Origin: Blautia glucerasea
Lineage (GTDB): Bacteria; Bacillota; Clostridia; Lachnospirales; Lachnospiraceae
Length of the DNA stretch: 64,000 nucleotides
Direction of reading: 5' to 3'
Assembly: GCF_013304385.1 (NCBI RefSeq)
Contig: NZ_JAAITU010000008.1
Coordinates: 1-64,000 of the forward strand
Under the pieces are notes generated by a model that worked only from the letters and a program-made list of their open reading frames with translations, ran no database searches and was not told where the DNA came from. Each line of letters starts with the position of its first letter. Position 1 is the first letter of the stretch. This document shows positions 11,146 to 64,000 of the stretch, in pieces. Made by a program: the position numbers and the translations under genes.

Positions 11146-11183
11146 AAATGCAATGATAATGCAATTTCAAACACCCAAAGCCG

Positions 11184-11208: not shown

Positions 11209-11222
11209 TAGCCCAGCGTCAA

Positions 11223-12767
11223 CTATTCAAACTCAATCGTTGCAGGGGGTTTTCCGGTACAGTCGTACAATACGCGGTTTACATTTTTTACTTCATTCAC
11301 AATACGGCTGGTGGTTTTTCCGATGATCTCCCAGGGAATTTCGGCAAATTCAGCGGTCATGAAATCGGTAGTAGTAACCGCACGCAGGGCAACTGCATAA
11401 TCATAAGTACGTTCGTCCCCCATAACGCCTACAGAGCGCATATTTGTGAGGACTGCAAAGTACTGATTCACTTTTTTGTCCCAACCTGCATTGGCGATTT
11501 CCTCACGCCAGATCGCATCCGCATCCTGAACCATTTTAACTTTCTCAGGTGTAATATCACCAATGATACGGATGCCAAGTCCTGGTCCCGGGAATGGCTG
11601 ACGATAAACCAAATAGTCCGGAATGCCAAGCTCAAGACCTGCCTTACGAACCTCATCTTTAAACAGGTTTCTTAACGGCTCGATAATTTCTTTAAAATCT
11701 ACGCAGTCCGGAAGTCCGCCTACATTGTGATGGGATTTGATCACTGTGGATTCTCCTCCTACACCACTTTCCACAACGTCCGGATAAATCGTTCCCTGTA
11801 CCAGGAAATCTACAGCACCGATCTTCTTTGCCTCTTCTTCAAAAACACGGATGAACTCCTCACCGATGATCTTTCTCTTTCTTTCCGGCTCTTCTACGCC
11901 TTTCAGCTTTTCGTAAAATCGTTCCTGTGCATTTACACGAATAAAATTCAGATTATATGGCCCTTCCGGTCCGAACACAGCTTCTACTTCATCGCCTTCA
12001 TTTTTGCGGAGCAGACCGTGGTCTACAAAAACACAGGTAAGCTGATTGCCTACTGCTTTTGATAAAAGGACTGCTGCCACAGACGAATCCACACCACCTG
12101 ACAAAGCACAGAGAACCTTGCCGTTTCCTACTTTTTCACGAATATTTTTAATGGATTCTTCTACAAAGGAATCAATTTTCCAGTCTCCGGAACAACCACA
12201 GATGTTGTATACAAAATTGGACAGCATCTTACGTCCTTCTTTTGTATGAAGCACTTCCGGGTGGAACTGTAATGCATACAGGCCTTTCTCCACATTCTGT
12301 ACTGCTGCCACAGGACAGTCATTGGTCCATCCACAGATTTCAAAACCTGGTGCCTGTTTTGAAATGTAGTCATTATGGCTCATCCAACAGATGGTTTTGG
12401 GTGAAACATCTGTAAACAATCTGGAGGCCGTATCAACATTTACTTCAATTTTTCCGTATTCACGAACTGGTGCTTTTTCAACCTTGCCGCCTAACAGGTG
12501 CATCATAAGCTGTGCACCGTAACAGATTCCAAGAACCGGTACACCCAGTTCAAAGATTTCTTTTGTATAAGTAGGGGCATCCGCCGTATAGCAGCTGTTA
12601 GGACCGCCAGTAAAGATAATCCCCTTTGGCTGCATTGCTTTAATCTTCTCAATATCTGTCTTGTAAGAATAAATCTCACAGTATACGTTACATTCTCTGA
12701 CACGACGTGCGATCAGCTGATTATACTGTCCACCGAAATCAAGTACAACGACTGTCTCTCTGTTCAT
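11223..12767 (-). CDS. guaA: GMP synthase (glutamine-hydrolysing)
   Basis: Converts XMP, ATP and glutamine to GMP in purine synthesis. 514 aa: a class I glutamine amidotransferase domain with the nucleophile Cys in GICYGAQ and the HPE motif (QFHPEV), the ATP pyrophosphatase domain with SGGVDSS, and the C-terminal dimerisation domain ending in KPPATIEFE. The length is normal. I chose the ATG at 12767 because AGGAGG lies just upstream; the ATG at 12788 precedes that site. A sigma-A-type promoter lies at 12850-12878. The element inserted beside its stop codon has left the coding sequence whole. Confidence 0.97.
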
Positions 12768-12849
12768 TGGTTTCCTCCTATGGTCCATATTGGGGACTTA
12801 TTGGCTTTTACCGAAACCTTTTCTGTCCTCGAAGCTTTATCCGTGTCAT

Positions 12850-47786: not shown

Positions 47787-47822
47787 ATCTCTTTTCCTCA
47801 TTTCCCATTTATCCTACTATTC

Positions 47823-48332
47823 TTACTTTTTGAATGCCCAGAATTTATTCATAATAAAATTCAACGGTACACTGATCAGCAAATTGACGATTGGAGCGAT
47901 CATCTTTGAAATTCCCAGGATCTGAACCCATAAAACAGACAAAACCGTATTCAGGAACAGTCCGGTAAATGCATATGAAATATATGTCTTTATCAGTGCC
48001 TTATACCAGGACACTGCCTCGCCATCCTCGCTGTTAAACACATATTTACGATTCCAGTAAAACGACCAAAGCACACTAAGCACAAATGCAATGACCTGTG
48101 CGATCAAATAGTCTGTCTTCACAAACCATCCGTTTTTTTGGAAAAGAAGCAGCGAAATCACATATATCACATAAGATACAAACGTATTGCTGAGTCCCAC
48201 AATTCCAAATTTAATAAATTGCAGAAATCCCTGCCATTTTTCTTCACTTATATGAAGGTGGAGTATCTTAAACACAACAAACCCTGCTGCTTTCTCAATA
48301 AATTTCCATACACTGCCTGCGATTTTCTCCAT
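47823..48332 (-). CDS. gtrA: GtrA family membrane protein
   Basis: About 170 aa with four membrane helices (LQFIKFGIVGLSNTFVSYVIYVISLLLF, read in parts, then three more). GtrA proteins are thought to move undecaprenyl-phosphate-linked sugars across the membrane, working with a GtrB-type transferase and a GT-C enzyme. Both kinds of partner are in this operon. Start uncertain: ATG at 48332, or GTG at 48356 with a poor binding site. C-terminus NLLISVPLNFIMNKFWAFKK is typical. Confidence 0.9.
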   Translation of the reverse strand: MEKIAGSVWKFIEKAAGFVVFKILHLHISEEKWQGFLQFIKFGIVGLSNTFVSYVIYVISLLLFQKNGWFVKTDYLIAQVIAFVLSVLWSFYWNRKYVFNSEDGEAVSWYKALIKTYISYAFTGLFLNTVLSVLWVQILGISKMIAPIVNLLISVPLNFIMNKFWAFKK

Positions 48333-48395
48333 AACCAAACTCTCTTTTTCCTTCACTCTCTTGTATCTAACTGAATGCTTCTACTGCACATTCCC

Positions 48396-48950
48396 TTACA
48401 TCTTTATTTCTTCTGTATATCCATTAACCTCTGTCAGTCTTTTTTCATCGATCCAGATTTCATCTTCGATTCCACCTACCGATGCCGGGTGACTCCCACA
48501 TACCTGGAAGCCAATCTTCAGATAGCTTTTATATGCAGCCTGATTCTCCTGATGAACAGATGCAATGATCTTCTTTAATCCCATTTTTCTAAATGCTACC
48601 ATCATGGCCAATACAAAGCTTTTGCCACCGATGCCATGACCTCTGGCTTCCATATCTCCCACCTGTAGCCGTCCGATCTCAGCCTGTTCTTCCCGAAAAT
48701 CATATAAAGACAGACTTCCCACCATACGGTGTAGATGTTCTGTCTCTTCAATAGCAAATGCAATGGTATCATTATCTTTTAAATAAGATTCATACCACTT
48801 TTCCTGCATTTCTGGCGTAATATGATCAATCTTTCTAAGGAAGCGGGTCTGTGTGGCGTCATTACGCCACACCCGCAGATTCTCGATATCTTTCCGCTCC
48901 AAAGGACGGAGCATAATATTTTCATAAGAAGCATGATACTGATGATTCAC
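48396..48950 (-). CDS. GNAT N-acetyltransferase, probable sugar amine acetyltransferase
   Basis: 184 aa, RimJ/RimL-type GNAT fold. N-terminal RPLERKDIENLRVWRNDATQTRFLRK, the acetyl-CoA loop in EARGHGIGGKSF, and the C-terminal ASVHQENQAAYKSYLKIGFQVCG. It overlaps the aminotransferase stop by four bases, so the product amine is the likely substrate: acetylation of a dTDP-3-amino-3,6-dideoxyhexose. Known pathways (FdtC, QdtC) use left-handed beta-helix enzymes for that step, so a GNAT here would be an alternative solution. Inference from context. Confidence 0.8.
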   Translation of the reverse strand: MNHQYHASYENIMLRPLERKDIENLRVWRNDATQTRFLRKIDHITPEMQEKWYESYLKDNDTIAFAIEETEHLHRMVGSLSLYDFREEQAEIGRLQVGDMEARGHGIGGKSFVLAMMVAFRKMGLKKIIASVHQENQAAYKSYLKIGFQVCGSHPASVGGIEDEIWIDEKRLTEVNGYTEEIKM

Positions 48951-50056
48951 AGTCCTTCACCCTTTCCAAATTCATTCAAACATTTGATTACAAAATCCTG
49001 CTCTTCTTCTGTCATTCCATTATAAAGCGGAATAGACAGCACTTCTTTTGCATACTGTTCTGTAATGGGCAAAGACCCTTCTTTCATTCCCAGATACTGA
49101 TACGCCTCTGATAAATGCGGAGGAATCGGATAGTGGATAATTGTCCCGATCTCTCTTTCATTCAGATATTGGATCAGTTCATCTCTTCTCTCACAATGAA
49201 TCACAAACTGATGCCATACAGTAGTTGCACCTTCACGAATCTTGGGAAGATGGATCAGAGGATTCTTAATTTCTTTCAGATACCTTTCACAAAGGCTAGT
49301 CTTTTCTTTCGTCAATTCTTCCAGGTGGCCAAGTCTTACCCTGAGAAGTCCGGCCTGAAGCTCATCTAATCTGGAATTGGCACCTACCACCTTGTTATGG
49401 TAACGCTTTTCACTTCCATAATTACGGAAGATCCTTACATCCTGTGCAATCTTATCATCATTTGTTACAATGGCTCCTGCATCTCCAAATGCTCCTAGAT
49501 TCTTGGACGGATAAAAAGAAAAACAACCAATATCCCCAAAGGTTCCTGTCATTTTCCCGTCAAAGCAGGCGCCATGAGACTGTGCACAGTCTTCTACCAG
49601 CCGCAGATCATACTTCTTTGCAAGCTCCACAACTGGTTTCATATTGGATGCCTGTCCGTATAAATGAACAACCAGAATGGCTTTTGTCCTATCTGTAATC
49701 TTCTCTTCTATTTTGGACGCATCAATATTGTTGTATTCATCCGGCTCAACAAATATGGGGGTTGCACCGTTAATGGTGATGCCCATAACACTGGCAATAT
49801 AGGTATTCCCCTGCACGATCACTTCATCCCCTTTTCCTATTCCCAGAACACGGAATGCGATCCACAAAGCATCCAGTCCACTTGCCAGACCTACACAATG
49901 TTTTGCCCCTTCATATTGAGCAAATTCATTTTCAAAAGATTTCACTTCATTTCCAAGTACATACCAGCCGGATCTTAACACCTGTAGAGCTTTATCCTCA
50001 AATTCCTGCTGATACATTTCAAATCCACGATCCATTCTATTGGGCATGATCTTCAT
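48947..50056 (-). CDS. fdtB: DegT/DnrJ/EryC1 sugar aminotransferase, FdtB/QdtB-like
   Basis: 369 aa PLP-dependent aminotransferase. The PLP-lysine is in FYPSKNLGAFGDAGAI, and ASGLDALWIAFRVLGIGKGDEVI, VEDCAQSHGA and GANSRLDELQAGLLRVRL are family marks. The FdtA-like gene two genes upstream suggests it aminates a dTDP-3-keto-6-deoxyhexose at C3. Starts one base from the GT2 gene. The substrate is inference; the fold call is certain. Confidence 0.88.
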   Translation of the reverse strand: MKIMPNRMDRGFEMYQQEFEDKALQVLRSGWYVLGNEVKSFENEFAQYEGAKHCVGLASGLDALWIAFRVLGIGKGDEVIVQGNTYIASVMGITINGATPIFVEPDEYNNIDASKIEEKITDRTKAILVVHLYGQASNMKPVVELAKKYDLRLVEDCAQSHGACFDGKMTGTFGDIGCFSFYPSKNLGAFGDAGAIVTNDDKIAQDVRIFRNYGSEKRYHNKVVGANSRLDELQAGLLRVRLGHLEELTKEKTSLCERYLKEIKNPLIHLPKIREGATTVWHQFVIHCERRDELIQYLNEREIGTIIHYPIPPHLSEAYQYLGMKEGSLPITEQYAKEVLSIPLYNGMTEEEQDFVIKCLNEFGKGEGL

Positions 50057-51006
50057 TATTGTTCATTCCTCCCATCTTTATCCACAACCTTATTTTCTTC
50101 TTCCACAATATAAGTGGGTCTGTTCCTGGAAGCATCAAAAGTCCTCCACAAATATCCACCCAGAATCCCCAATGTGACCATAATAATTCCAAAGCTGAGA
50201 AGATTAAAAATAAACAGTGTAGTCCAACCACTAACCTGTATCAATCCCATCAGCTTACAGATCAATACGAGAATCCCCCAGACCACAGCACCTATAAAAG
50301 ATACCGTTCCAATACCTGTAACTAGCGTAATCGGCAGAGTGGAGAAGCTGAATAAGGTATCTGCCACCAGACGCACCTTTTTCTTAAATGTCCATTTGCT
50401 TGTTCCAATCTCTCTTTCCAGACGTACATACGGAATTTCTTCTGTTTTAAACCCACTCCACAGGATCTGCCCGGTAAGAGCGCTGTTTCTCTCATCCAGA
50501 GCCAGAAGCACCTGTATCACCTTCCGATCCAGCAGATACACATCAAAGCCGCCTTTTGGCATGTTGGACAGAGCTGCCTTTCGTACCATCCAATAATATG
50601 TATTGGCAAAAAGCTTAGTTCCAAAGCTTTCATTCCTGTCTTTTCGTACAGCCAGGACTACGTTATTGCCCTTCTTCCAGCTTTCCACCATTTTCAGGAT
50701 CAGTTCTGTAGGCTCCTGAAGATCTGCTGCCTTTACAACTGCACAATCTCCGGTACTTTTCTCAAGCCCGCACAAAATCGCCGCATGAGAGCCGAAATTA
50801 CGAGAAAGGCTTACAATCTTTATATTTGGGTCCTGATCAGCCAGCTTCTGCATCACTCCATAGCTATTGTCTTTGGAACCGTCATTCACCATAACGATCT
50901 CATATTCATAATCAATGGCATCAATAAACTTTTCTTTTATATCCTTATAAAGAGGTATCAGATTATCGTCATTATAATAAACCGGTATTACTATCGAAAC
51001 CTTCAT
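50056..51006 (-). CDS. gtrB: GT2 glycosyltransferase with two membrane helices, GtrB/DPMS-like
   Basis: 316 aa. GT-A domain at 1-220: VSIVIPVYYNDDNLIPLYKDI, EIVMVNDGSKDNS, VVKAADLQEP (the D-x-D-like metal site). Two C-terminal membrane helices (about 232-254 and 263-292) match enzymes that load a sugar onto undecaprenyl phosphate. With GtrA it forms the first two parts of a three-part glycosylation system. Overlaps FdtA-like by four bases. The donor is probably the dTDP- or UDP-sugar made by adjacent genes. Confidence 0.88.
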   Translation of the reverse strand: MKVSIVIPVYYNDDNLIPLYKDIKEKFIDAIDYEYEIVMVNDGSKDNSYGVMQKLADQDPNIKIVSLSRNFGSHAAILCGLEKSTGDCAVVKAADLQEPTELILKMVESWKKGNNVVLAVRKDRNESFGTKLFANTYYWMVRKAALSNMPKGGFDVYLLDRKVIQVLLALDERNSALTGQILWSGFKTEEIPYVRLEREIGTSKWTFKKKVRLVADTLFSFSTLPITLVTGIGTVSFIGAVVWGILVLICKLMGLIQVSGWTTLFIFNLLSFGIIMVTLGILGGYLWRTFDASRNRPTYIVEEENKVVDKDGRNEQ

Positions 51007-51440
51007 GCTTTTTCTCCACCATTACCTTCTGTACGTTTCACGATTTTGACAAACTCATCATAATCACGGATATATTCATCCGGATCGTAATGCTCACTTG
51101 CAAGTACCAGAAGAACAGAATCTTCTGAAAAATCATACATATCTTTCCATACCATCTGTGGAAGATAAATTCCTGTATGCGGGCGGTTCAAGCTGAAAAC
51201 AGCTTCATTCCCAAGTCCGTCCTTAACCTTCACTTTACTTTTCCCTGCAACATTAATCAGTACAAATTGACTTTTTAAATTAGCATGCTGTCCTCTGACT
51301 ACATCTGTATCTGAACCATAGATATAAAAAATACGTTTAATATCGAAAGGTATATCTTTATGCCCTTCAACAATTACAAGATGTCCCCTCTCGTCTCCTT
51401 TTTGCGGAAACTCCAGCATTTTAACACCATTTTCACTCAT
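51003..51440 (-). CDS. fdtA: FdtA/QdtA-type sugar 3,4-ketoisomerase (cupin)
   Basis: 145 aa. WxcM-like cupin: FPQKGDERGHLVIVEG, IKRIFYIYG, VVRGQHANLKSQFVLINVAGKSKV, and VLLVLASEHYDPDEYIRDY at the C-terminus. Known FdtA and QdtA isomerise dTDP-4-keto-6-deoxyglucose to the 3-keto form. In those enzymes the motif is usually RG-x-HAH; here it reads RGQHAN, so the second His is Asn. This may change the chemistry or stereo-outcome. AAAGGAGG lies before the ATG. rmlA and rmlB, needed for the precursor, are not in this window. Confidence 0.87.
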   Translation of the reverse strand: MSENGVKMLEFPQKGDERGHLVIVEGHKDIPFDIKRIFYIYGSDTDVVRGQHANLKSQFVLINVAGKSKVKVKDGLGNEAVFSLNRPHTGIYLPQMVWKDMYDFSEDSVLLVLASEHYDPDEYIRDYDEFVKIVKRTEGNGGEKA

Positions 51441-51469
51441 ATTGGATCCTCCTTTGTTTCATTTATCCA

Positions 51470-53140
51470 TTATACTTCACTTTTGTGTATATCTTTTTTA
51501 TCGTATATGCCTCGATAAATGTAATAATCTCCATCCTTCTGTGGGCTCTCTACAGGATCTAAATAAATGTATTGCTTCCAGCCCACTTTCATTGCACATG
51601 TATCACTGATCTGTGTACGTGAAAATGCAACATAATTCCCATTTTCCTTGTCTACAACCGTAAATAGTTCAGCTGAAGTCGCATACAATTGAAGAGGACC
51701 GGCATGATCAGCCCGAAGCACTGAAATATTTTTCCCCTGCAGCTGTGCATAATCAGTCCAGTAAGAATCATGAACTGCAAGGGTATTATACGCCTGATAT
51801 ATTTCTTTTGAGCAAATCTCTTTTCCATTGTATTCATTTATCGTATCTGTTCTGAAAAGGGCTTCAATATTTTCAAGTCTGGTAAAATCATAATCCATTT
51901 CTCTTGAAAAAATATCATTTTCAAGCTGGATTGCGCAGCCAAGACTAAGAATGCCTACCAGCATCACAACACTAATCACCTTTTTGAAACGAATAAACCG
52001 TGTAAGTCCCCAAACAATATAAGAAAACGCCAAGGTCATAACAAAATAAGAGAAATAAGAAACCGGAAGTGAAATAAATCCCTGCTCCCCTACATTTCCC
52101 TGATACATCTTAGATACTGAAATAGGTAAAAAAGGCAAAACGGCACAACCGAGCAACATTACAAGAATCAGCAAGCTTTTCCCTAATTCCTTTTTCTCTT
52201 TTTCAACTTCTTTTCTGAAGATTTTCCATAATGCATATCCAGCAATCATCAAGATTGCAATCACTCTTATAACACCTTCTGTAGACAACCAGTGTTTATA
52301 ATAGTTAAACAGATATAAATATTTATCTGAAAGGAACAACCCCCCTGGTACAGCGCTGCGCAGCAGATTCTTGATGATCACGAGAGAAGCCTTCAGATTA
52401 AATCCTATCTGTGTACCATCATATTGAGAAGGAAAGATCTTTCCGGTGACTACATAACATGCCAGAAAAACACATCCCACAATAATCGGCACCAGACACG
52501 GCTTTATATTCTCTTTTATTTTTTTCCAGCTGTACATATGCCTTTCGGTAATTCCCAAAAGAAGAAATACCGGTGTGTATGTAATAAAAGCCTCATAACT
52601 ACAGCACACGATCCAAAACAGGATCATAGCTATAATCATATATTTTTTCTTTTCTGTACGGAGATAATAAATATAAAGTAATAAAGATACATATAATAAT
52701 GTAAGCGGTATCCCATATAAAGTCACATAGGCATTCGGAAGTGTGGGTTCGAAAGAAAGTGGCATAAACAATGCCAGTAATACTGTCACTATACCTGTCA
52801 GAGTCTTTTTATGAAAAATCTCTTCTGTCAGTTTTGCAAATAATCCAATATTGGATATAACTGTAAGAACCTGCAAGATTCGAAAGCAATATCTTGATTT
52901 TCCGATATACCCCAGAATCTGTGTCACAGGCACTACCAGGCAAGACATAGCCCGTCCTTTTCCCTGAAGAAGTTCTGTATATGAATGAGTCAAAAATTCC
53001 TTTACCCCTCGCATACTCCAATATCTTGCAAGAAGCTCATCATTATGCATTATTCCTAATGTAAGCAATGGGAAAAAAAGTAAAACGGTACCAACTACCA
53101 TCAAAAAAATGAAGCACTGATTTCTTTTCTTTTCTTCCAT
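51470..53140 (-). CDS. Polytopic membrane protein, GtrII-like GT-C candidate
   Basis: 556 aa with about ten or more membrane helices to residue 430 and a C-terminal outside domain (about 435-556). The first outer loop has acidic HNDELLARYW, as in GT-C glycosyltransferases. The family resemblance (GtrII-like glucosyltransferase membrane proteins) is from topology and loop style, so the exact family is unsure. It is first in its sub-operon behind a promoter at 53280-53308, with AAGGAG before the ATG. It may be the final transferase for the sugar made by the next genes. Confidence 0.72.
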   Translation of the reverse strand: MEEKKRNQCFIFLMVVGTVLLFFPLLTLGIMHNDELLARYWSMRGVKEFLTHSYTELLQGKGRAMSCLVVPVTQILGYIGKSRYCFRILQVLTVISNIGLFAKLTEEIFHKKTLTGIVTVLLALFMPLSFEPTLPNAYVTLYGIPLTLLYVSLLLYIYYLRTEKKKYMIIAMILFWIVCCSYEAFITYTPVFLLLGITERHMYSWKKIKENIKPCLVPIIVGCVFLACYVVTGKIFPSQYDGTQIGFNLKASLVIIKNLLRSAVPGGLFLSDKYLYLFNYYKHWLSTEGVIRVIAILMIAGYALWKIFRKEVEKEKKELGKSLLILVMLLGCAVLPFLPISVSKMYQGNVGEQGFISLPVSYFSYFVMTLAFSYIVWGLTRFIRFKKVISVVMLVGILSLGCAIQLENDIFSREMDYDFTRLENIEALFRTDTINEYNGKEICSKEIYQAYNTLAVHDSYWTDYAQLQGKNISVLRADHAGPLQLYATSAELFTVVDKENGNYVAFSRTQISDTCAMKVGWKQYIYLDPVESPQKDGDYYIYRGIYDKKDIHKSEV

Positions 53141-55120: not shown

Positions 55121-55759
55121 TTAAAAAAATCTCTCTTCCAACATCAAACACAATGCATGATAAACCGGTAAATGAAGTTCCTGAATCTTAAATGTCTCCA
55201 TTTCATTCACAACAATAGCAACATCCACTTTATCTTTCAGTTTTCCGCCGTCTTTGCCTGTCAGTGCAATAGTCTTCATCCCTTTTGCACGTGCAACAAT
55301 AGCTGCATAATTTACGTTTACTGAATTTCCGGATGTGGAAATTCCAAGAAAAACATCTCCCGGGTTTCCGTATCCCTGTACCTCCTGTGCCAGAATCAAA
55401 AGACCATCTACATCATTAAGAAATGCAGTGTTCAAGCCAATATTCATATTCAAGGACAAAGCAGGTAAAGTACCTTCAAGCTTCTCGGCCAATACACTTC
55501 CCATTTCCGGATCCAGCTGGATCATCTTGTTTTTTAAATCTTCTTCCAACGGCCGTCTTTTAATAAAGCTTTTCATAAGCTCGCCAACAATATGCTCCGC
55601 ATCTGCTGCGCTTCCACCGTTTCCAGCCACTAGCAGTTTGTTCCCATTTAGATAGCACTCTTCCAGCACTTTATAAGCCTGGTAAATATCGTCCTTACTG
55701 GATTCCAACACTGGATATCTTTCAATTAAATTGTTGAAAATTTCTTCAATTTTGCTCAT
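55121..55759 (-). CDS. gmhA: Sedoheptulose-7-phosphate isomerase
   Basis: 212 aa SIS-domain isomerase. LLVAGNGGSAADAEHIVGEL is the phosphosugar-binding signature; DVFLGISTSGNSVNVNYA and MKTIALTGKDGGKLKD follow, and ELHLPVYHALCLMLEE ends the protein. It converts sedoheptulose 7-phosphate to D-glycero-D-manno-heptose 7-phosphate. The other three enzymes of the GDP-heptose branch are next to it, which fixes the pathway. It begins two bases after the gmhB stop. Confidence 0.95.
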   Translation of the reverse strand: MSKIEEIFNNLIERYPVLESSKDDIYQAYKVLEECYLNGNKLLVAGNGGSAADAEHIVGELMKSFIKRRPLEEDLKNKMIQLDPEMGSVLAEKLEGTLPALSLNMNIGLNTAFLNDVDGLLILAQEVQGYGNPGDVFLGISTSGNSVNVNYAAIVARAKGMKTIALTGKDGGKLKDKVDVAIVVNEMETFKIQELHLPVYHALCLMLEERFF

Positions 55760-55761
55760 AA

Positions 55762-56331
55762 TTATCTCAGTCCTTTACATACAATATTATTTACTGCATC
55801 ATATAGATCATCTGCTATATATTGAAACAAATGGAATCCTTCCTTTTCCAATTGGCTTCCATATCCAGTTCTTACCAAAATCGTTTTCAAATGGAAATTG
55901 TTCCCAGCCTTAATGTCTCCTATATTGTCACCAATCATCCATGAATCCTCGATATCAACATCAAAGTCCTCACAGGCTTTTTCAAACAGTCCTGTTTCCG
56001 GTTTTCGACAATGACATTTCATTTTATATTTTCCTATGCCTGCATCCGGATGATGTGGACAATAATAAAATCCGTCTATATGTGCTTTATATTTACTCAG
56101 TTGTTCATTAACATATTGATGCAATTTTATTACATCATCTTCTGAATAATAGCCTCTCGCAACACCAGCCTGATTGGACACCACGATTACCTGATATCCG
56201 GCATTATTCAATCTTGCAATAGCTTCCGGAACTTTTGGAATAAATTCAAATTCTTCTGGACGATATAAGTAATTCTTCTCTACATTAATAGTTCCGTCCC
56301 TGTCCAGAAACACAGTTTTTCTGCCACTCAT
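55762..56331 (-). CDS. gmhB: D-glycero-D-manno-heptose 1,7-bisphosphate phosphatase
   Basis: 189 aa HAD-family phosphatase. Catalytic FLDRDGTIN, VVSNQAGVARG with the motif II Ser, the GmhB zinc loop (YCPHHPD...CHCRKP), and SWMIGDNIGDIKAGNN as motif IV. It removes the 7-phosphate. Start overlaps the hddA stop by four bases. In this branch the enzyme should act on the alpha-anomer made by HddA. Confidence 0.95.
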   Translation of the reverse strand: MSGRKTVFLDRDGTINVEKNYLYRPEEFEFIPKVPEAIARLNNAGYQVIVVSNQAGVARGYYSEDDVIKLHQYVNEQLSKYKAHIDGFYYCPHHPDAGIGKYKMKCHCRKPETGLFEKACEDFDVDIEDSWMIGDNIGDIKAGNNFHLKTILVRTGYGSQLEKEGFHLFQYIADDLYDAVNNIVCKGLR

Positions 56332-57404
56332 AATTTGAAATCAAACCGTCCTTCCGGAATCTGAACTTTAATATCCTGGTAATCCCACCGATTACTATCC
56401 ATCGTCCATGCCTGAGCTCCGCGAAGTTCAAAATTCCAGTCTGCCAACTGACCTCCTGCTTTTTCCATTCTTTCAGCAACTTTATGCTTTACATTATACG
56501 GGCAATACATTAAAAGATAACCGCCACCACCAGCACCAAGCAGCTTTCCTCCAAGTGCACCAGCTTTGACCGCTTCCTCGTATAATTCATCGATTTTGGG
56601 ATTGGTAATCTTATTGCTCATACGTTTCTTGCTATTCCAGCCATAGTCCAGTAATTTTCCAAAACTGTTAAGGTTTCCTTTTAATAATTCATCTTTCATA
56701 GCATAAGCTAACGCCTTTACCTCTGTCATGGCAGCCACTGCATCTGTCTCTTTTTTCTTATAATTATTCACCTGATCTGAAATAATATTGGCAGATACAT
56801 GAATGTTCCCAGTATAGCAAAGCAGCAGATTATATTGAAGTTCATGTATAATATCTTTTTTGATTCGAAGTGGATTTACTACCACATCATTTTTCCCATG
56901 AAATTCAATAAAATTAAAACCACCAAAGGTAGCAGCATATTGATCCTGATAACCGCCTGAAATCCCAAGTACTTCTCGTTCCACATGGTATGCCAGATCT
57001 GCCATTTCATAAGCATCCATTGTAACGCCTTTCCACTTTGCCATTGCCATCAGCAAAGAGACCATGACCGTAGAGGAAGTTCCAAGACCAGAGCCTGGAG
57101 GCGCATCACACTGCAAGTAAACCTCGCACCCCTGATTAATATCCAGTGCATTTAAAGCAGCTTTTACTAAATCAAGTTTACCATCATATACATAATTTTC
57201 TTTCGCATTGTATTTAACAGTCATATCAAAATCCAGGGAATGAACTGTGATCTGATCATTTTCTTTGGGCAAGATTGAACAATATGCATATTTGTTAATC
57301 GTACTGCCTATTATGGCTCCACCATGTTCCACACAATATGGTTCCACATCTGTACCGCCACCGCCAAAACTAACTCTGAGTGGTGCTCTTCCTCTTATAA
57401 TCAT
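56328..57404 (-). CDS. hddA: D-glycero-alpha-D-manno-heptose 7-phosphate kinase
   Basis: 358 aa GHMP kinase. N-terminal RGRAPLRVSFGGGGTDVEPY, the ATP loop PPGSGLGTSSTVMVS, and the C-terminal GALGGKLLGAGGGGYLL motif. It makes the 1,7-bisphosphate. Presence of HddA with HddC, rather than HldE, shows the GDP-alpha-heptose branch used for S-layer and capsule glycans. Confidence 0.95.
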   Translation of the reverse strand: MIIRGRAPLRVSFGGGGTDVEPYCVEHGGAIIGSTINKYAYCSILPKENDQITVHSLDFDMTVKYNAKENYVYDGKLDLVKAALNALDINQGCEVYLQCDAPPGSGLGTSSTVMVSLLMAMAKWKGVTMDAYEMADLAYHVEREVLGISGGYQDQYAATFGGFNFIEFHGKNDVVVNPLRIKKDIIHELQYNLLLCYTGNIHVSANIISDQVNNYKKKETDAVAAMTEVKALAYAMKDELLKGNLNSFGKLLDYGWNSKKRMSNKITNPKIDELYEEAVKAGALGGKLLGAGGGGYLLMYCPYNVKHKVAERMEKAGGQLADWNFELRGAQAWTMDSNRWDYQDIKVQIPEGRFDFKL

Positions 57405-57417: not shown

Positions 57418-58128
57418 TTAAAATTCTATGTTTTTTTGTTCTACATCTTTAATAAACTTAAAATAATCGTCCGGCACACCAATGTCAATAAAATATCCTT
57501 CATTTACAACTGCACCAAGTTTTTTCTTTTCAGCCAACATTTGAGGAATAATTTCATTCTCCAGCGAACATTTTTTTCCTTCAGGAATTAAATCCAACAC
57601 AGTTTTCCGCATTAAATAAATTCCTCCATTTATAACCCCGGAAATATGATCACTGACCTTTTCATTAAAACCAATAATCATATGGTTATCCAGTTTTACA
57701 CTGCCGTATCTGGATACATCCGGAACCTTTCTCAAAACCAGTGCCATGTCCATATTTTCACTTTTATACAGATCAATTGCGTCACTGTAAGCAGCCTGAT
57801 AAAATGTATCTGCATTCAAAACAAAAAACTCTGATTCTTTAATATACTGACCAGCATTTTTTATTGCGCCCGCAGTCCCTAACTGCTCTTTTTCGTAGGA
57901 ATATTCAATATGCACGTCCAATTGCTCGCCGTTTCCAAAATACTCCTCCACCATTTCACCTTTGTAGCCAACAGCCAGAACAATATCGGTTATTCCATGT
58001 TTCTTTAACTCCAAAATCAAATATTCCATGAAAGGTTTCCCACATACGTCTGCCATAGGCTTGGGTCTGTCATTAACCACACTTTTCAGTCTCGTTCCAA
58101 GACCTCCTGCAAGAAGTACTGCCTGCAT
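57418..58128 (-). CDS. hddC: D-glycero-alpha-D-manno-heptose 1-phosphate guanylyltransferase
   Basis: 236 aa nucleotidyltransferase. N-terminal MQAVLLAGGLGTRLKSVVND, PKPMADVCGKPF, and the metal site in FFVLNADTFY. It forms GDP-D-glycero-alpha-D-manno-heptose. By sequence alone the base (GDP versus other) is not certain, but the adjacent GmhA, GmhB and HddA genes support HddC. Starts 12 bases after the stop of the 1357-aa gene. Confidence 0.92.
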   Translation of the reverse strand: MQAVLLAGGLGTRLKSVVNDRPKPMADVCGKPFMEYLILELKKHGITDIVLAVGYKGEMVEEYFGNGEQLDVHIEYSYEKEQLGTAGAIKNAGQYIKESEFFVLNADTFYQAAYSDAIDLYKSENMDMALVLRKVPDVSRYGSVKLDNHMIIGFNEKVSDHISGVINGGIYLMRKTVLDLIPEGKKCSLENEIIPQMLAEKKKLGAVVNEGYFIDIGVPDDYFKFIKDVEQKNIEF

Positions 58129-58140: not shown

Positions 58141-61100
58141 TTATTCAAAATCCTCTTTTACTATGTTCCAAACTGCTTCAAGACTAAAATTCTGCTTTAC
58201 AAGCTTCTGGTAGTCCTTAACGGTCTGTGCAAGGACAGTCTCATCCTGATATAACCGGATAACTGCATTTGCAAAATCTTCCGCATCATCAGCCACCTTA
58301 ACAACTCTTTCAGGATCTGGAATACCCTCAATACCAACAGAAGTAGTTACCATAGGAGTACCATAGTATAAAGCTTCTACAACTTTGCCCTTTACCCCTG
58401 CTCCATATCGAAGCGGAACAACTACCAACCGACATGTATCATACAATCTGGCCAGTTCTTCTTCAGATACAAACCCTTTTACAATTATGCCATTTCCCTC
58501 TAGTTTTTCAATCTCTGGTGTTACAGAGGAGCCTACAATGTAAAATGGCATCTGAATCTTCTGGCGAATAAGCGGATATATTTCTTTTGCAAACCAAAGT
58601 ACAGCATCTGCATTTGGTGGATGTCCAAACCCGCCTACAAATACAATTCCCTCTCTTTTCGCAAAGTCCATTGGAATGTTATTTCTAAATTGCTCATATA
58701 CATATGCTGTGATGGCTTTCACAGGAATGGTTGCATCAATTTTATGAATTGCTTCTTCCTCAACATAAGAAGGATAATAACTGATATCAGCTTTGCGCAT
58801 AATATACAATTCCTTTTCCAGCCATTCATCAGATTCATTCTTTTTCTCAATGTCACCAGTCAGTTCATATTCCCGCTGAAGTCTTAAAAAATGCAGATCA
58901 TGTCCATAGTATATACACTTAATATCCGTATTTTCTCTGATGAAATCAATATATTTGATTGTAATATGTGGTCTGTTTAAATAAGCAAAATCAATGCACT
59001 TCTTGTTCTCCAAAAGCCATTCCTGCCAATGTTGTGCATACCACGGACCATAAAGTACTTCGATTCCCATTTGCTGAAGAATAGTTGTATAAGGTTCTTG
59101 CTGGTAGAAGTTGTCACCAATAAATTTTACCATATATCCTTTTTCAACAAACATTCTTAAGTACTGGATAGTTGTTTTAGATCCGGCATCTTTGTCAAAC
59201 TGTGGCACATAATGGTCAACCACCAGAATGGTCTTTTTATTTTGACTTCTTTCTCTGGCTTTAAATACAAATTGACCACATTCATATTGTTTGTCCAGTT
59301 CATCTTTCCAGCGCTTCTTCATTTTAATGCTGTTTTCCACCTGATATTGTTTAATCCCCGTATTCAAATCCGTTCCATTTGATTTCCCCTCAAAATGAAC
59401 TACCACGGATAATGGCTGATATACTACCCGATATCCGGCTTTTCTGACTCTAAATGCAAGATCCGAATCCTCACAATACGCAGGTGCAAAATACTCATCA
59501 AAGCCCCCTAATTCTTCCCACAGACTTCTTCTTATCAGGATTGAAGCACCAGAAATGTAATCCACATCTCTGACATAGTTATATTCTGGTTTCGTGGCAT
59601 CATCGTTTCTGCCGTAATTCCACCCACTTCCATCACGCCAGATAATCCCACCGGCTTCCTGGAGCGTTCCGTCAGCATATACAAGTTTGGAGCCTGCCAT
59701 TCCGATCGTTTGATCTTTTTCGCAAAGATCAACAAGCGGCTTTAACCAATTATCCTGTACCTGGGTATCATTATTTAAGAATAAAACATATTTCCCCTTG
59801 GCTTTTTGGGCAGCATTATTGCAATTGCGAAGGAACAACATATTACTTGGAGTTCTGGCAATTATAAGATTCTCAACAACAGAAGCTATCTTTGTTGTCA
59901 AGTCATTCGAGCAATCGTCTGCTAAAATAACCTCATAAGATACGTTTTCACTGTTTTCTAAAATTGATTTTATACAATAATATGTATAAGTAAACTGGTT
60001 GTATGCTGGGATGACAATAGATACTGTTGGATGATCATACTGTGGAAGTTTCAATACTTCACATTCGTGAATATCTGTGATTTCATCATATATTTTTTCA
60101 TCTACATCAACTTTTATCTGTTTCAGTTCTCCCTGGTGATAATCGCGCATTAAGTGTTCATAAGCGCCCTTAATCCCTTCATTCTTTACATAACCATACG
60201 CAATTTTTAATTCTTGCATATTCACATGTGTCATCATGCGACCAAAAGCATAAAGATTTCTTCCGATGAATCTTGGGAATATCATAATACAATCATAAGT
60301 ATGGCAGATGAAGCGCATGATTTTGTACATCTTTGAATGTACGATTGCATCTCGTTCTCTTTCAGCTGGAAGGAGCATCTCAATGTGTCCTTTTTTATTA
60401 AGAATCTCCTGCCTAAGTTCAATCTCCATCTCTTTAAATTGATTTAACTCATGCTCGCTTTTATTCAGTTCATCTTGCAAATCAGTTATTTCACTTAAAA
60501 GTTTCTGATTTTCCATTTTTAATATATGCTCTGTTGTTTCAAGTTCACGTTCCGTTTTTTCTTTTGCACTCTGTAAACATGCTATTTTATTTTTAACTGT
60601 CCATTCATCATTAAAGCGATTGCAATATCCTCCATCCCCATAAAAATCAGTCTGTCTATACAGAACTTTAGACCATATATGGCTTTCAAGAGCATTAAAA
60701 ACCGAAGTTTCTTTTCCAATATTCAAATAATTCCAAATTTCCTGTAAACTAATATCTGTTTTTTCCTGGAGACGTGAATATGCAGAATTCACAGCATAAT
60801 ACAAAATAAAATTAAGCGGAACATTGTCAAAACACCATTCTTGATCATAAAAAATAAACTTACCATTTTCATAAAAGCTATTATAAAATGTCAGATCAAC
60901 AAAACCTTTTTCAAGTATTGGTCCCATTTGATATTCTGAAACATCGATGTTCAATTCATCTACAATACTTTTGTCAAAAACCATGTCACTTGACTTCACA
61001 AGCTCAGTTCTAAATTCTTCCAAGAAAGAGAATAATCCAGAACGATCATTATTTCTCAATAATTTTCCAAAATAATCTTGTGCACTCACGCCGTGATATG

Positions 61101-62214
61101 CATCACATTTTAAGGTGTTCCCTTCACGTACATACCCTAAAATATCAATGCCCCTTTGCTTTAAGAATTCTGTATTATAGTAAATATTATCAATATGTTG
61201 TACTGCTTGTTCATGCATTGGTATTTTATAAATAGATCCATCATTGTACAAAACAGTACTGACTCTATATATTTTTTTCACTTCTCCTTTACTAGAAACA
61301 TAAATCACTTTTCTTTCCTTTTTTTGCTGTAAACTACACTCTACCAAATATGAATTAGCAAAAAAATCCAGCACATTATTTTCCAGAATATCTTTGTATA
61401 AATATTTTTCATTCATAGTTAGCAAACTATTTTTTGAATAAGTAAACGAGACTTTTTGCAAGTTAAGATAATCTGGTTTGTACTCATCTGTTGCGATAAT
61501 TTCAGGAAATTTATAATCGGGCAGAACATAATAAAATCGCTTATTCTTAAAACCTACATTATTCAACAATTGTTCTAATTCACTCTTGGAAAAAGTCCTT
61601 GGAGTATGTTTCTGCTCATATCCTTCCAATCCCACATATGGTTCTTGTAAATGATCCTCAGAGCCACCCACCCAATATTTTAATCCAGTTTTATTCTCAA
61701 TTGCAAACAATAGAACCCCATCAGGTTTCAAAAAGCTTTTTGCCTTCTCAATGAAATCATTATATGGATTTGATGATTCTAAAAACACATCTGCATATTC
61801 AAGCACACCAATAAATACAACATAATCAAATTTTTGAGGACTTTCCCATTTTAAAATATCCTCAGTAACAATCTTAAGATTCTTTCTCTCTGAATAACGT
61901 GCTTTAATAACAGAAGCACGTGCTTCACTCATTTCTACAGAAACAACACTCTTAGCTTTCTCACACAATAAACCAGTCAATGCCCCCATACCTGCTCCGA
62001 CTTCCAGGACATCTGCATCTTTCTTAAAGGGATACCAGTTCAAAATGTTCCATCGAACTGAGGAAAACGTATTATTCACAGTATATTCACTACACTTTCC
62101 AATGTAATCCTGAACTGTATCTTCCGGATATCGTTGAGCGATATCCAACATTTTATTTTCTGTAGTTTCACCATCGGAATATACAATTTTATCATTCTGA
62201 TTTTTTACAATCAT
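58141..62214 (-). CDS. Multi-domain methyltransferase / kinase-like / coiled-coil / GT2 / GT4 protein
   Basis: 1357 aa. (1) SAM methyltransferase at about 60-230: VLEVGAGMGAL at 69-79, VSVEMSE at 91-97. (2) Kinase-like domain at about 290-520: Lys in EVKKIYRV near 313, D440-x4-N445 like a catalytic loop, and Asp457 in FYDQEW like the metal-binding Asp. (3) Coiled coil at about 543-615. (4) GT2 domain at about 728-970: VSIVIPAYNQ, ADDCSN, LNNDTQV, EDSDLAF. (5) GT4-like domain at about 995-1357: GGFGHPPNADAV, VEALYYGTPMV. Domains 1-3 follow the order of WbdD, the cap-adding chain-length regulator of ABC-exported O antigens. It overlaps wzt by four bases. The MTase and GT calls are firm; the kinase call is moderate. 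Confidence 0.88.
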   Translation of the reverse strand: MIVKNQNDKIVYSDGETTENKMLDIAQRYPEDTVQDYIGKCSEYTVNNTFSSVRWNILNWYPFKKDADVLEVGAGMGALTGLLCEKAKSVVSVEMSEARASVIKARYSERKNLKIVTEDILKWESPQKFDYVVFIGVLEYADVFLESSNPYNDFIEKAKSFLKPDGVLLFAIENKTGLKYWVGGSEDHLQEPYVGLEGYEQKHTPRTFSKSELEQLLNNVGFKNKRFYYVLPDYKFPEIIATDEYKPDYLNLQKVSFTYSKNSLLTMNEKYLYKDILENNVLDFFANSYLVECSLQQKKERKVIYVSSKGEVKKIYRVSTVLYNDGSIYKIPMHEQAVQHIDNIYYNTEFLKQRGIDILGYVREGNTLKCDAYHGVSAQDYFGKLLRNNDRSGLFSFLEEFRTELVKSSDMVFDKSIVDELNIDVSEYQMGPILEKGFVDLTFYNSFYENGKFIFYDQEWCFDNVPLNFILYYAVNSAYSRLQEKTDISLQEIWNYLNIGKETSVFNALESHIWSKVLYRQTDFYGDGGYCNRFNDEWTVKNKIACLQSAKEKTERELETTEHILKMENQKLLSEITDLQDELNKSEHELNQFKEMEIELRQEILNKKGHIEMLLPAERERDAIVHSKMYKIMRFICHTYDCIMIFPRFIGRNLYAFGRMMTHVNMQELKIAYGYVKNEGIKGAYEHLMRDYHQGELKQIKVDVDEKIYDEITDIHECEVLKLPQYDHPTVSIVIPAYNQFTYTYYCIKSILENSENVSYEVILADDCSNDLTTKIASVVENLIIARTPSNMLFLRNCNNAAQKAKGKYVLFLNNDTQVQDNWLKPLVDLCEKDQTIGMAGSKLVYADGTLQEAGGIIWRDGSGWNYGRNDDATKPEYNYVRDVDYISGASILIRRSLWEELGGFDEYFAPAYCEDSDLAFRVRKAGYRVVYQPLSVVVHFEGKSNGTDLNTGIKQYQVENSIKMKKRWKDELDKQYECGQFVFKARERSQNKKTILVVDHYVPQFDKDAGSKTTIQYLRMFVEKGYMVKFIGDNFYQQEPYTTILQQMGIEVLYGPWYAQHWQEWLLENKKCIDFAYLNRPHITIKYIDFIRENTDIKCIYYGHDLHFLRLQREYELTGDIEKKNESDEWLEKELYIMRKADISYYPSYVEEEAIHKIDATIPVKAITAYVYEQFRNNIPMDFAKREGIVFVGGFGHPPNADAVLWFAKEIYPLIRQKIQMPFYIVGSSVTPEIEKLEGNGIIVKGFVSEEELARLYDTCRLVVVPLRYGAGVKGKVVEALYYGTPMVTTSVGIEGIPDPERVVKVADDAEDFANAVIRLYQDETVLAQTVKDYQKLVKQNFSLEAVWNIVKEDFE

Positions 62215-63629
62215 ACTTTTTCTCCATTTTTATTAATCCAAGAATGTTTCATCGTTACCAAGCCATATTCTCTTTGCTCTTCTTTATTCACTTTAAATTG
62301 TATTAAACTGTATATATTATCAAATACTTCATCAACTTCACTACGAATTCTTACATCCAGAAAATATATTCCACCAAGCAAATTCAAAGAATCAATAGTG
62401 AACTCTACATCTCCATTTTTCCCAGATAAATAGTAACTTCCTGTTGAATCTTTACTTGTTGCTCCATAGCAATATAGCCAATCATTTCTTGTTATTCCAA
62501 TAATGAAATTAAGTTTAATTCCAATCTGTTCCGCACTATATTTCATTTTAATAACAATTTTCTCTCCCGGGTTAAATTCCAGGCGTTCATTTCCTTTTGC
62601 ATCCAGTAGCTTAACCTCTGTGAACTTTACTTTCCAGTTTCCTTCTCTTCTAGCATCTGGTCCACACTGGGTTGCTATATCATGGCAACTGGCCTTTCTT
62701 TTTTTCTCTTCACGTTTCTTTTCTTCTAATAATTGTTTCTGTTTTTCTTCTTCCTTTTGTTTTCTTTCCTGTAATATCTTCTGTTCTTTTTGTTGCTGTT
62801 CCGTCTCTTTCTTACGCTTCTCTTCTTCTAACTCTCGTTTCTTCTGTTCCTCAAGCTCCATCCTATATTCAAGTTCTGCACGTTCCAACCTGGATTCTTC
62901 CATCTTTTCCAAATATTCCTTGCAAACTTTTCTGGCTGGTCCATCATCACGAATACGTCCCTCATCAATCCAGATAGCACGGTCACATAGTCTTTCCACC
63001 TGTCCTAAAGCATGAGACACAATAACGATTGTTGTTCCTTGATCCTTCAAACTTTTCAGTTTATTAAAGCATTTTGTCTGAAAAGCATTATCCCCAACAG
63101 CCAGGATCTCATCAATCAGCAAAATATCTGCATCTACATTAATGGCAACAGAAAAAGCCAGACGCATATACATACCGGATGAATAAGTTCTGACTGGATT
63201 ATCAATAAATTCCTCTAACTCAGAGAAACGAATTATATCATTCAATCTTTGATCCACTTCTTTTGCTTTAATTCCAAAAATAGAAGCATTAATATAAATA
63301 TTCTCTCTTCCACTCATGTCTGGGTGAAATCCAGCCCCCAATTCAATAAGGCTGCATACACGTCCCTGAATATCTATAGTTCCTCCATTAGGACGCAGAA
63401 TCTTAGTGAGCAGCTTTAAGGTCGTGCTTTTTCCACAACCGTTTTTACCTATCAGTCCAACAGATTCGCCTTTCTTCACATCAAAGCTGATCCCCCTCAG
63501 GACCTCACGCATCTCATATTTATTTCTATTAAGGTGTATCAGCCTTTCACGAAGCATATGCCCTTTATCTTTATATACTTTAAAATGTTTTTGTACATTT
63601 CGTACTTCAATGGCATTGTCTGATTTCAT
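62211..63629 (-). CDS. wzt: ABC transporter ATPase for polysaccharide export, Wzt-type
   Basis: 472 aa. Nucleotide-binding domain at 1-240: Walker A GKNGCGKST at 61-69, signature YSSGM at 149-153, Walker B ILLIDEILAVGD, switch His206. Residues about 240-312 form a long, strongly charged helix of Glu, Lys, Gln and Arg. From about 325 to 465 comes a beta-rich Wzt-C-like domain (NPGEKIVIKMKY, GGIYFLDVRI). Known: Wzt-C domains bind the modified end of O-antigen chains before export. The helix is longer and more charged than in typical Wzt or TagH. Confidence 0.93.
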   Translation of the reverse strand: MKSDNAIEVRNVQKHFKVYKDKGHMLRERLIHLNRNKYEMREVLRGISFDVKKGESVGLIGKNGCGKSTTLKLLTKILRPNGGTIDIQGRVCSLIELGAGFHPDMSGRENIYINASIFGIKAKEVDQRLNDIIRFSELEEFIDNPVRTYSSGMYMRLAFSVAINVDADILLIDEILAVGDNAFQTKCFNKLKSLKDQGTTIVIVSHALGQVERLCDRAIWIDEGRIRDDGPARKVCKEYLEKMEESRLERAELEYRMELEEQKKRELEEEKRKKETEQQQKEQKILQERKQKEEEKQKQLLEEKKREEKKRKASCHDIATQCGPDARREGNWKVKFTEVKLLDAKGNERLEFNPGEKIVIKMKYSAEQIGIKLNFIIGITRNDWLYCYGATSKDSTGSYYLSGKNGDVEFTIDSLNLLGGIYFLDVRIRSEVDEVFDNIYSLIQFKVNKEEQREYGLVTMKHSWINKNGEKV

Positions 63630-64000
63630 TACAATTCCTCCGCAAAATTTCCTTCAAGGTGAGTAAAAACAACTTCACCAATCAGCAAAATTATAATTCC
63701 AAAAGTATACATTCCGATCCATGTTAAGGCAGTCGGAAGCTGATGATAATATAATAAATTGTGATAAGAAGTTATTACCAAAGTCATAGGATTTAACAGT
63801 AAAATGTGTCCTACAAATGCAGGAATTGCGTCAATTGCATACATGATCGGCGTTGCCCAAATCCAGGCTTGCAAAAGTACACCTACAATATATTCCATGT
63901 CTCTAAGGTAAACCGTTACAGCTGAAAAAAACAACGTCAGTCCCAGTGCAAGCAAATACTCTGCCAACATTACGGCTGGCACTAATAACAGGTGCCATGA
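63629..64000 (-). CDS. wzm: ABC transporter permease for polysaccharide export, Wzm-type (partial)
   Basis: Only the C-terminal 123 codons are present; the frame is open to the right edge. Three hydrophobic segments and the YLRDMEYIVGVLLQAWIWATPIMYA motif are typical of Wzm/TagG permeases. The stop codon overlaps the wzt start by one base (TAATG). It would form the transmembrane channel with Wzt for export of the finished glycan. Confidence 0.92.
   Translation of the reverse strand, partial: SWHLLLVPAVMLAEYLLALGLTLFFSAVTVYLRDMEYIVGVLLQAWIWATPIMYAIDAIPAFVGHILLLNPMTLVITSYHNLLYYHQLPTALTWIGMYTFGIIILLIGEVVFTHLEGNFAEEL

Follow-up and report, generated by a model that had tools for sequence, protein, structure and literature searches.

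Organization of the locus

The subject of this study is a gene of the gut bacterium Blautia glucerasea, a Firmicute of the Lachnospiraceae (NCBI RefSeq assembly GCF_013304385.1) lying in the first 64,000 nucleotides of contig NZ_JAAITU010000008.1, a stretch called the window below. It is a single unbroken open reading frame (ORF) of 1357 amino acids on the minus strand, which starts with the ATG at 62214 and has its final base at 58141 in the ORF list; frame 1 of the plus strand of this interval is packed with stops. As shown in Table 1, the product joins an S-adenosylmethionine (SAM) methyltransferase, a kinase-like domain, a long predicted helix, and two glycosyltransferases. It is probably a single-chain terminator, ruler, and polymerase of a surface glycan exported by an ATP-binding cassette (ABC) transporter. 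The architecture and the function read from it are well supported, in part through predicted structures.

The Pfam matches on the protein cover residues 57-224 (methyltransferase), 732-960 (GT2), and 1189-1324 (Glyco_trans_1_4), and the Pfam search found no family over the kinase region 285-518. The methyltransferase retains its SAM-binding motif E71-x-G-x-G-x-G as well as E173-N174. An AlphaFold model of residues 1-640, made from an alignment of the window protein and its relatives, has a predicted local distance difference test (pLDDT) score of 90.1; one helix spans residues 540-611, and no additional domain appears from 518 to 540.

The wzm and wzt genes for the exporter lie directly upstream on the same strand. 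The start codon of the 1357-codon ORF overlaps with the stop codon of wzt by four bases (ATGA), and wzt overlaps with wzm by one base. The hddC gene begins 12 bases past the end of the ORF and is followed by hddA, gmhB, and gmhA with gaps of at most 13 bases. The heptose assignments are best hits, and the curated cut-off is exceeded by GmhB alone. The Wzt_C domain was recognized by Pfam with an E value of 5.7e-22. It is joined to the ATPase by an 81-residue linker rich in E, K, and R; the linker of the L044 Wzt (L044:7421-9004) has 99 residues, and the median over 68 Wzts is 33. The original prediction for this DNA, made from the letters alone and giving no strand, had described the 1357-residue frame, its domain order, the D440-x4-N445 and Asp457 signature, the fused transferases, and the adjoining Wzm/Wzt, all of which were borne out by the ORF list, Pfam, the alignment, and the gene order.

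Table 1. Features of the gene for the 1357-residue protein and of its surroundings, in window coordinates.
Feature	Position	Strand	Basis
Probable cap-ruler-polymerase protein (whole gene)	58141..62214	-	ORF list; full-length relatives L042, L043, L045
Class I SAM methyltransferase domain, residues 11-283	61366..62184	-	Pfam; AlphaFold/Foldseek
Kinase-like domain, residues 285-518 (K330, D440-x4-N445, D457)	60661..61362	-	AlphaFold, Foldseek, conservation; no Pfam family
Catalytic-loop motif D440..W460	60835..60897	-	Conservation in 69/69 covering rows
Predicted coiled-coil helix, residues 540-611 (putative ruler)	60382..60597	-	AlphaFold; heptad score; variable length
Helical segment 617-639 past the ruler; candidate membrane-associating helix, low confidence	60298..60366	-	AlphaFold, low pLDDT
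GT2 glycosyltransferase domain, residues 726-964	59323..60039	-	Pfam
GT4-like glycosyltransferase domain, residues 986-1356	58147..59259	-	Pfam Glyco_trans_1_4
Wzt: ABC ATPase with C-terminal Wzt_C carbohydrate-binding domain	62211..63629	-	Pfam ABC_tran, Wzt_C
Wzm: ABC permease, 3' part (whole gene L009:3629-4405)	63629..64000	-	Pfam ABC2_membrane
HddC-like heptose-1-phosphate guanylyltransferase	57418..58128	-	NCBIfam best hit, E 5.7e-61, below curated cut-off
HddA-like heptose-7-phosphate kinase	56328..57404	-	NCBIfam best hit, E 8e-91, below curated cut-off
GmhB-like heptose-1,7-bisphosphate phosphatase	55762..56331	-	NCBIfam PRK08942.1, 190 bits, above cut-off 178
GmhA-like sedoheptulose-7-phosphate isomerase	55121..55759	-	NCBIfam best hit, E 5.6e-39, below curated cut-off
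Probable side-chain genes (group)	45273..53140	-	Pfam/NCBIfam

Is this gene organization found elsewhere? A scan of named genomes found a relative encoded in 405 of 593 candidate stretches, among the matches listed. I analyzed 82 loci, namely 80 scanned loci and two of the B. glucerasea genome. Since the 80 were chosen by two methyltransferase peptide patterns, the invariance of the methyltransferase among them is partly by construction; the kinase residues lie outside those patterns. The main methyltransferase and the kinase are encoded by one gene in 48 loci and by two adjacent genes in 31, and the methyltransferase (about 300 residues as a separate gene product) stands alone in 3. The separate genes might suggest that the window gene is a chance fusion or an assembly artefact. 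This is next to inconceivable, being refuted by relatives with the identical domain order: L042 and L043 (from a single assembly, on two contigs; 1403 and 1449 residues), L045 (1370 residues), and L145. The identity of L042, L043, and L045 to the window protein is 43-51%.

The kinase-type domain

Residues 290-520 are predicted to adopt a kinase-type fold, as had been proposed from the sequence. AlphaFold modeled residues 285-535 alone with a pLDDT of 91.9. In a Foldseek search with this model, the best 50 of 1438 rows are nearly all aminoglycoside or macrolide phosphotransferases (best E value 6.7e-6) and also include one capreomycin phosphotransferase and three RIO/Bud32 entries. Neither WbdD, the capping enzyme of Escherichia coli O9a, nor AmiN, the published nearest structure of ORF6 of Klebsiella pneumoniae O7, is among these 50. 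When the whole model was searched, methyltransferases came first, and WbdD (4azs) was found at rank 50 over 513 columns with a root-mean-square deviation of 16. Sequence searches were silent on the fold: a kinase profile (A2) of 18 relatives had 8 matches among the PDB sequences at E<=10, with no kinase or WbdD among them, and a single-sequence search did not match a PDB kinase either. Weak OmpH matches in these searches were taken as chance.

The conservation of the putative catalytic residues was assessed in alignment A3, which holds the window protein and 68 of the 80 loci in 95 rows, 26 of them methyltransferase-only halves. D440, N445, D457, E459, and W460 are present in all 69 rows covering them, and K330 in 67 of 69. 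For reasons of near-copies, fragments, odd pieces, or brevity, A3 omits L049, L057, L059, L061, L064, L077, L081, L087, L114, L115, L117, and L120, and alignment A4 omits L059, L064, L077, L081, L084, L087, and L117. In one alignment, 16 of 17 relatives have an extra segment after the kinase, which the window protein does not have.

Linkage to the exporter

The co-occurrence of the N-terminal half (E<=1e-10) and the Wzt_C domain (E value threshold 1e-4) was assessed in 295 genomes of the order. The N-terminal half was matched in 62 genomes and Wzt_C in 80; both occur in 52, Wzt_C only in 28, and the N-terminal half only in 10 (Fisher p 3e-27, kinship ignored). Thus, Wzt_C is present in 52 of the 62 genomes with the N-terminal half vs 28 of the 233 without it. 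Of the 75 match rows of the N-terminal half, 48 sit within 10 kb of a Wzt_C.

At the level of loci, Wzm was found in 68, a Wzt-type ATPase in 70, and Wzt_C in 69 of the 82, and in 51 the gene just upstream, on the same strand, encodes Wzt. The figures for Wzm and Wzt_C are more reliable because the Wzt ATPase profile (1e-5) can also match other ABC ATPases; two more ABC ATPases of L043 are matched by it. Neither Wzm nor the Wzt ATPase was seen in 12 of the 82 loci, seven of which have less than 4 kb upstream; one of these seven, L081, has a Wzt_C piece. Eight genomes of exporter-less loci were searched whole, and a Wzm homologue was found somewhere in all eight. Wzt_C was found in 5 of 10 genomes, namely those eight and the genomes of L048 and L054, two loci whose Wzm/Wzt lack a Wzt_C. 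A search of plasmids gave only 2 records, matching the methyltransferase part alone. The genome containing the window bears a second Wzm-Wzt-methyltransferase-kinase locus (G000 contig 21, L010:8984-13328), whose methyltransferase clusters with Blautia in the tree; the host cell may thus make two capped glycans.

The original prediction had expected the N-terminal domains to accompany a Wzt_C-bearing transporter and had named homologues without an ABC glycan exporter as contrary evidence. The expectation holds for most loci, and two kinds of exception were found. A divergent subfamily (L122:9762-12008, L123:8604-10853, L124:8613-10991, and L127:9826-12231) lies in flagellar-type glycosylation islands with no Wzm/Wzt in the 16-20 kb read; L122 adjoins FlaG, FliD, and FliS. 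These four proteins have lost the SAM motif and kept T320, K330, D440, N445, D457, and E459, with W460 replaced by Phe. L122 ends in a C-terminal cytidylyltransferase domain, and similar C-termini were recognized by eye in the other three. The second exception is L125 (L125:7890-12097), where twin methyltransferase-kinase genes of 571 and 573 codons flank one gene; their tails are too short for a coiled coil, and no exporter was seen in the 20 kb read. A third copy in the L125 genome adjoins a Wzt_C. In view of the L122-type and L125 exceptions, the methyltransferase-kinase pair is a general module, of which the exporter and coiled-coil setting is one use. The linkage of the family to the ABC exporter is strong but not absolute.

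The L122-type proteins are perhaps kinase-cytidylyltransferases making a CDP-activated decoration, judging from their domains. In the type A flagellar glycan of Clostridioides difficile, a CTP:phosphothreonine cytidylyltransferase has been proposed for phosphothreonine, according to the available part of the source (PMC10714395). One may ask whether the window kinase also phosphorylates a small molecule, such as an amino acid or an alcohol, that is later put on the glycan, in the way proposed for this phosphothreonine, with no chain terminator involved. The small-molecule phosphotransferase type of the fold and the CDP-activated product suggested by the flagellar-island relatives speak for this. 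Nevertheless, it is quite improbable, for the window protein has no cytidylyltransferase domain and has instead glycosyltransferases, a long helix, and a Wzt_C exporter, which is the setting of O7 ORF6.

The coiled coil

A coiled coil had been predicted at residues 543-615. A long helix is indeed predicted there, at 540-611, while the heptad score, a crude in-house proxy and not a published predictor, proved not to be specific. The score of residues 530-640 is 0.68, which was reached in 1 of 500 shuffles. The end of the coiled coil is marked by GHIEMLL (residues 609-615). The GHI-x-x-LL end motif is common to the window protein, L042-L045, L051, L147, and L149, which have three different caps, and it was not found in the remaining six of the capped GT2-GT4 proteins scored. 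The length of the putative ruler varies (92 residues in the window protein, 106 in L042, 137 in L043, and 123 in L044), and the GHIExLL motif occurs twice in L043. A heptad score of 0.58 or more was obtained for 13 of the 14 capped GT2-GT4 proteins scored, the observed value being reached in 0 to 8 of 60 shuffles. In the two capless proteins, L150 and L152, no segment qualified; they begin with a segment like that C-terminal to the coiled coil in the others, just past its place. The absence of the coiled coil from capless versions is what the ruler model predicts.

Outside this group the picture is different. When the part following the kinase was put to the crude heptad test, 35 of 70 kinase proteins from Wzt-containing loci passed, as did 9 of 20 from other loci, so that the score does not separate the two sets of loci. 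The idea that a coiled coil universally accompanies the kinase is therefore not tenable. The helix might be a mere tether, with the chain length set by Wzt binding or by the enzyme ratio. This would fit the 35 proteins without a heptad signal in Wzt loci and the failure of the score to separate the loci, as well as the in vitro methylation by WsaE of Geobacillus stearothermophilus, which was independent of chain length in the part of the report available (PMC2943079). I regard the tether as unlikely because in the GT2-GT4 group the coiled coil accompanies the cap, the two capless proteins read having none, and because its length varies with a doubled motif in L043.

The GT2-GT4 half and its caps

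The GT2-GT4 half was found at 12 places (one of them split into two rows) in 11 of the 295 genomes, counting the window itself. Identity to the window protein is 51-65% at the remaining 11 places, and 11 of the 12 lie within 10 kb of a Wzt_C. Nine loci, the window and L145-L152, were read gene by gene, with G262, G148, and the first place of G193 left aside. There are four kinds of N-terminus, or none. The methyltransferase-kinase N-terminus is present in the window protein and L145 and is split in L151. In L146, the kinase residues are kept behind a methyltransferase region without the SAM motif, fused to GT2-GT4. L147 and L148 have a different methyltransferase without a kinase, and L149 (L149:1610-5578) has a polysaccharide pyruvyltransferase (PF04230, E value 2.6e-27) followed by a coiled-coil-like spacer and GT2-GT4. 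L150 and L152 have no N-terminal cap. A Wzt ATPase is present in all nine loci, about 5 kb away in L152 and without Wzt_C in L149; the stretches read for L145 and L146 showed no Wzm.

HddA and GmhA types adjoin L149 and L150, and HddA and HddC adjoin L151. A mannose-1-phosphate guanylyltransferase gene accompanies L147, where it exceeds the cut-off, and L148, where it is truncated by the end of the stretch and scores below the cut-off. Neither heptose nor mannose genes were found in the stretches of L145 (contig end), L146, and L152. Of the 82 loci, 8 have a GT4 match. A GmhA-like gene is present in 4 of these (the window, L043, L045, and L099) and in none of the 74 others; it is absent from L042, L044, L051 (on a short contig), and L091. 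Altogether, heptose genes occur in 7 and a mannose gene in 2 of 16 GT2-GT4 loci. A single type of donor fits both kinds of locus, since this GDP-heptose is the counterpart of GDP-mannose with seven carbons in the sugar. L149 is a candidate locus for a pyruvate-capped heptose polymer, as its neighboring genes suggest.

Two further loci, L091 and L099, have a separate methyltransferase and a kinase-GT2-GT4 protein in one ORF; L051 is cut within GT4, and the L044 ORF ends within GT2. The GT2 domains of seven relatives are 61-68% identical to that of the window protein, and the GT4 domains of five are 44-58% identical over about 370 residues. The GT2-GT4 architecture occurs on two branches of the methyltransferase tree, which was made by a quick method and in which 25 of the 79 inner branches are drawn open. 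L091 and L099 share 63-64% identity in GT2 and 44-54% in GT4 with the window protein vs 37-39% in the methyltransferase and 22% or no match in the kinase. In L045, of the window's own clade, the values are 65% (GT2), 54% (GT4), 42% (methyltransferase), and 32% (kinase). Because the caps also diverge faster inside this clade, cap exchange is likely rather than proven.

In summary, the coiled coil, helix, GT2, and GT4 form a conserved unit joined to different N-terminal caps or to none. It is tentatively proposed, with slightly more doubt than belief, that Lachnospiraceae and related Firmicutes have a conserved chassis of coiled coil, membrane-associating helix, GT2, and GT4 polymerizing a GDP-manno-type sugar (heptose or mannose), in which cap, ruler, and polymerase are one protein. 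The interchangeable caps would be methyl-phosphate, phosphate alone, a methyl group added by a methyltransferase of another family, or pyruvate, and some proteins would have no cap, the ruler being lost together with it; the window protein would be the methyl-phosphate version.

Comparison with known systems

The papers cited here were available in part, and the statements taken from them are limited to those parts. The closest described protein is K. pneumoniae O7 ORF6 rather than WbdD, and among Gram-positive bacteria it is WsaE. O7 ORF6 unites a methyltransferase, a kinase, a coiled coil, and two glycosyltransferases, and its addition of methyl-phosphate has been demonstrated; its aminoglycoside-kinase-like domain was missed by sequence annotation, and its glycan has an ABC exporter (PMC11231755). 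The window protein shares with it the order methyltransferase-kinase-coiled coil-glycosyltransferase-glycosyltransferase in one chain and the aminoglycoside phosphotransferase-type fold with a catalytic Asp. By published residue numbers only, G91, G93, E112, and Y158 of O7 ORF6 correspond to G73, G75, E94, and Y140 at an offset of 18, and its kinase D441 compares with D440. O7 ORF6 Y66 falls on position 48, which is Tyr in most relatives and Asn in the window protein. The O7 glycan differs in being a Gram-negative O antigen of rhamnose and ribofuranose, and both O7 ORF6 glycosyltransferases are GT2 (PMC11231755).

WbdD of E. coli O9a and K. pneumoniae O3 also has the order methyltransferase-kinase-coiled coil and caps an ABC-exported mannan (PMC3482155), and in this domain order the earlier description of the window protein as WbdD-like stands. 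The likeness does not extend to the kinase, which is eukaryote-like in WbdD (PMC3482155) and is not matched by the kinase profile of the window family. O7 ORF6 is nearer because the kinase-only model matches small-molecule phosphotransferases, with no WbdD among those listed. In addition, the WbdD polymerase WbdA is a separate protein (PMC3482155), while the window protein carries GT2 and GT4 itself. Membership in WbdD proper was ruled out on these two grounds, the kinase profile and the fused polymerase. K. pneumoniae O1 is reported to have a pyruvyltransferase (PMC10629545).

The original prediction had stated that no Gram-positive system of this form was described. This was too strong, overlooking WsaE and the S-layer glycan of C. 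difficile Ox247. Like the window protein, WsaE combines an N-terminal methyltransferase with two glycosyltransferases in a Gram-positive bacterium and lies beside overlapping exporter genes (wzm-wzt-wsaE), and the cap is thought to end growth; it 2-O-methylates rhamnose of a rhamnan, and no kinase is reported in the available parts of the papers (PMC2943079, PMC3898925), whereas the window protein has a kinase-type fold at 285-518. The Ox247 (SLCT-11) glycan is ABC-exported and has a phosphate-type end group proposed as the terminator; it is a cyclic phosphate on rhamnose, and the capping enzyme is not named in the part available (PMC6254364). Proteins of the Lcin_0519 family have a kinase and a methyltransferase, often with a coiled coil, and Wzt/Wzm neighbors in part of the genomes; by description alone, the named groups are proteobacterial, and fused glycosyltransferases are not mentioned in the available part (PMC9758233). 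A literature search, with subscription journals mostly outside it, found no Gram-positive methyltransferase-kinase terminator, no one-chain Gram-positive methyltransferase-kinase-ruler-polymerase, and no heptose/mannose chassis with exchangeable caps.

Proposed function

The C-terminal GT2 and GT4 would extend a lipid-linked chain, probably of D-glycero-D-manno-heptose supplied as GDP-heptose. The coiled coil of about 70 residues would space the cap enzymes from the polymerase, so that only long-enough chains reach them. The precedents are O7 ORF6, WbdD, and O12 WbbB, in which the coiled coil holds the cap at a fixed distance from the polymerase (PMC11231755). The kinase, whose fold and residues suggest this role, would phosphorylate the non-reducing end, and the methyltransferase would probably methylate the terminal phosphate. 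Wzt_C would then recognize the capped end, and Wzm/Wzt would export the chain. What is said here of the reaction, sugar, chain, and final anchor is inferred by analogy.

Does the methyltransferase really act on the phosphate? The kinase might be active and the cap a phosphate or a cyclic phosphate, with the methyltransferase acting elsewhere, for example on a sugar hydroxyl, or serving as a scaffold. The Ox247 glycan, which terminates in 2,3-cyclophospho-rhamnose (PMC6254364), is an example of such an end, and kinase residues persist without the SAM motif in L146 as well as in L122, L123, L124, and L127. This alternative is somewhat unlikely for the window protein, since its own SAM motif and E173-N174 are unimpaired and O7 ORF6 makes methyl-phosphate (PMC11231755).

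Several observations weigh against the proposal of a terminator, ruler, and polymerase in one chain. The Foldseek template modelling (TM) scores of the kinase are moderate, from 0.34 to 0.53 to the query. Methyltransferase positions 48, 49, 76, and 118, near-invariant in the family, deviate in the window protein. O7 ORF6 Y28 would fall at offset 16, not 18, and O7 ORF6 has an Ig-like domain between the kinase and the coiled coil that the window protein does not have. The heptad score peaks higher, at 0.74, in the C-terminal GT4 region than at the putative ruler, for which reason the score is not specific; up to 8 of 60 shuffles match it in relatives (L147), and the spacers of the capless proteins are short (84 and 97 residues). 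In 7 of the 16 GT2-GT4 loci, neither heptose nor mannose genes are present in the stretch read. The co-occurrence statistics ignore relatedness, and the full-length relative L045 (43% identity) has no Wzt_C in its genome and has Wzm homologues on other contigs. Even so, cap enzyme, ruler, and polymerase in one chain remains the best reading. As for L045 itself (L045:8669-13038), it lies with heptose genes a short way past a tRNA gene in a genome of 1.1 Mb from goat gut and may be an acquired island.

Other features of the window

The genes at 45273-53140 encode YfhO and GtrA families, a GtrB-like GT2, an FdtA-like isomerase, a sugar aminotransferase, a GNAT acetyltransferase, and a 556-residue protein without a clear family. 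The name GtrB-like is drawn from the position and a transmembrane tail, and from their position the genes would serve the same glycan. GtrA, GtrB-like, YfhO, and the 3-amino-sugar-type genes point to a possible extracytoplasmic addition of side chains to the exported glycan. At the other end, an integrase-like ORF (9964-11145) adjoins the 3' end of a guaA-like gene (11223-12788), and genes of recombination type lie farther out; the region 1470-12788, read from its ORFs only, is likely an integrated element.

Implications

The family is large, with a relative in about a fifth of the sampled genomes of the order. With the window protein, the principle of a joint terminator, ruler, and polymerase, established in E. 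coli and Klebsiella, would extend to gut Gram-positive bacteria. For Gram-positive glycans with phospho-caps, the family is a candidate type of enzyme. A polymerase unit with several caps or none provides a natural comparison for how a coiled coil measures a sugar chain. If the interchangeable-cap proposal is true, cap swapping on a constant chain would be a route to new surface types in gut Gram-positive bacteria.

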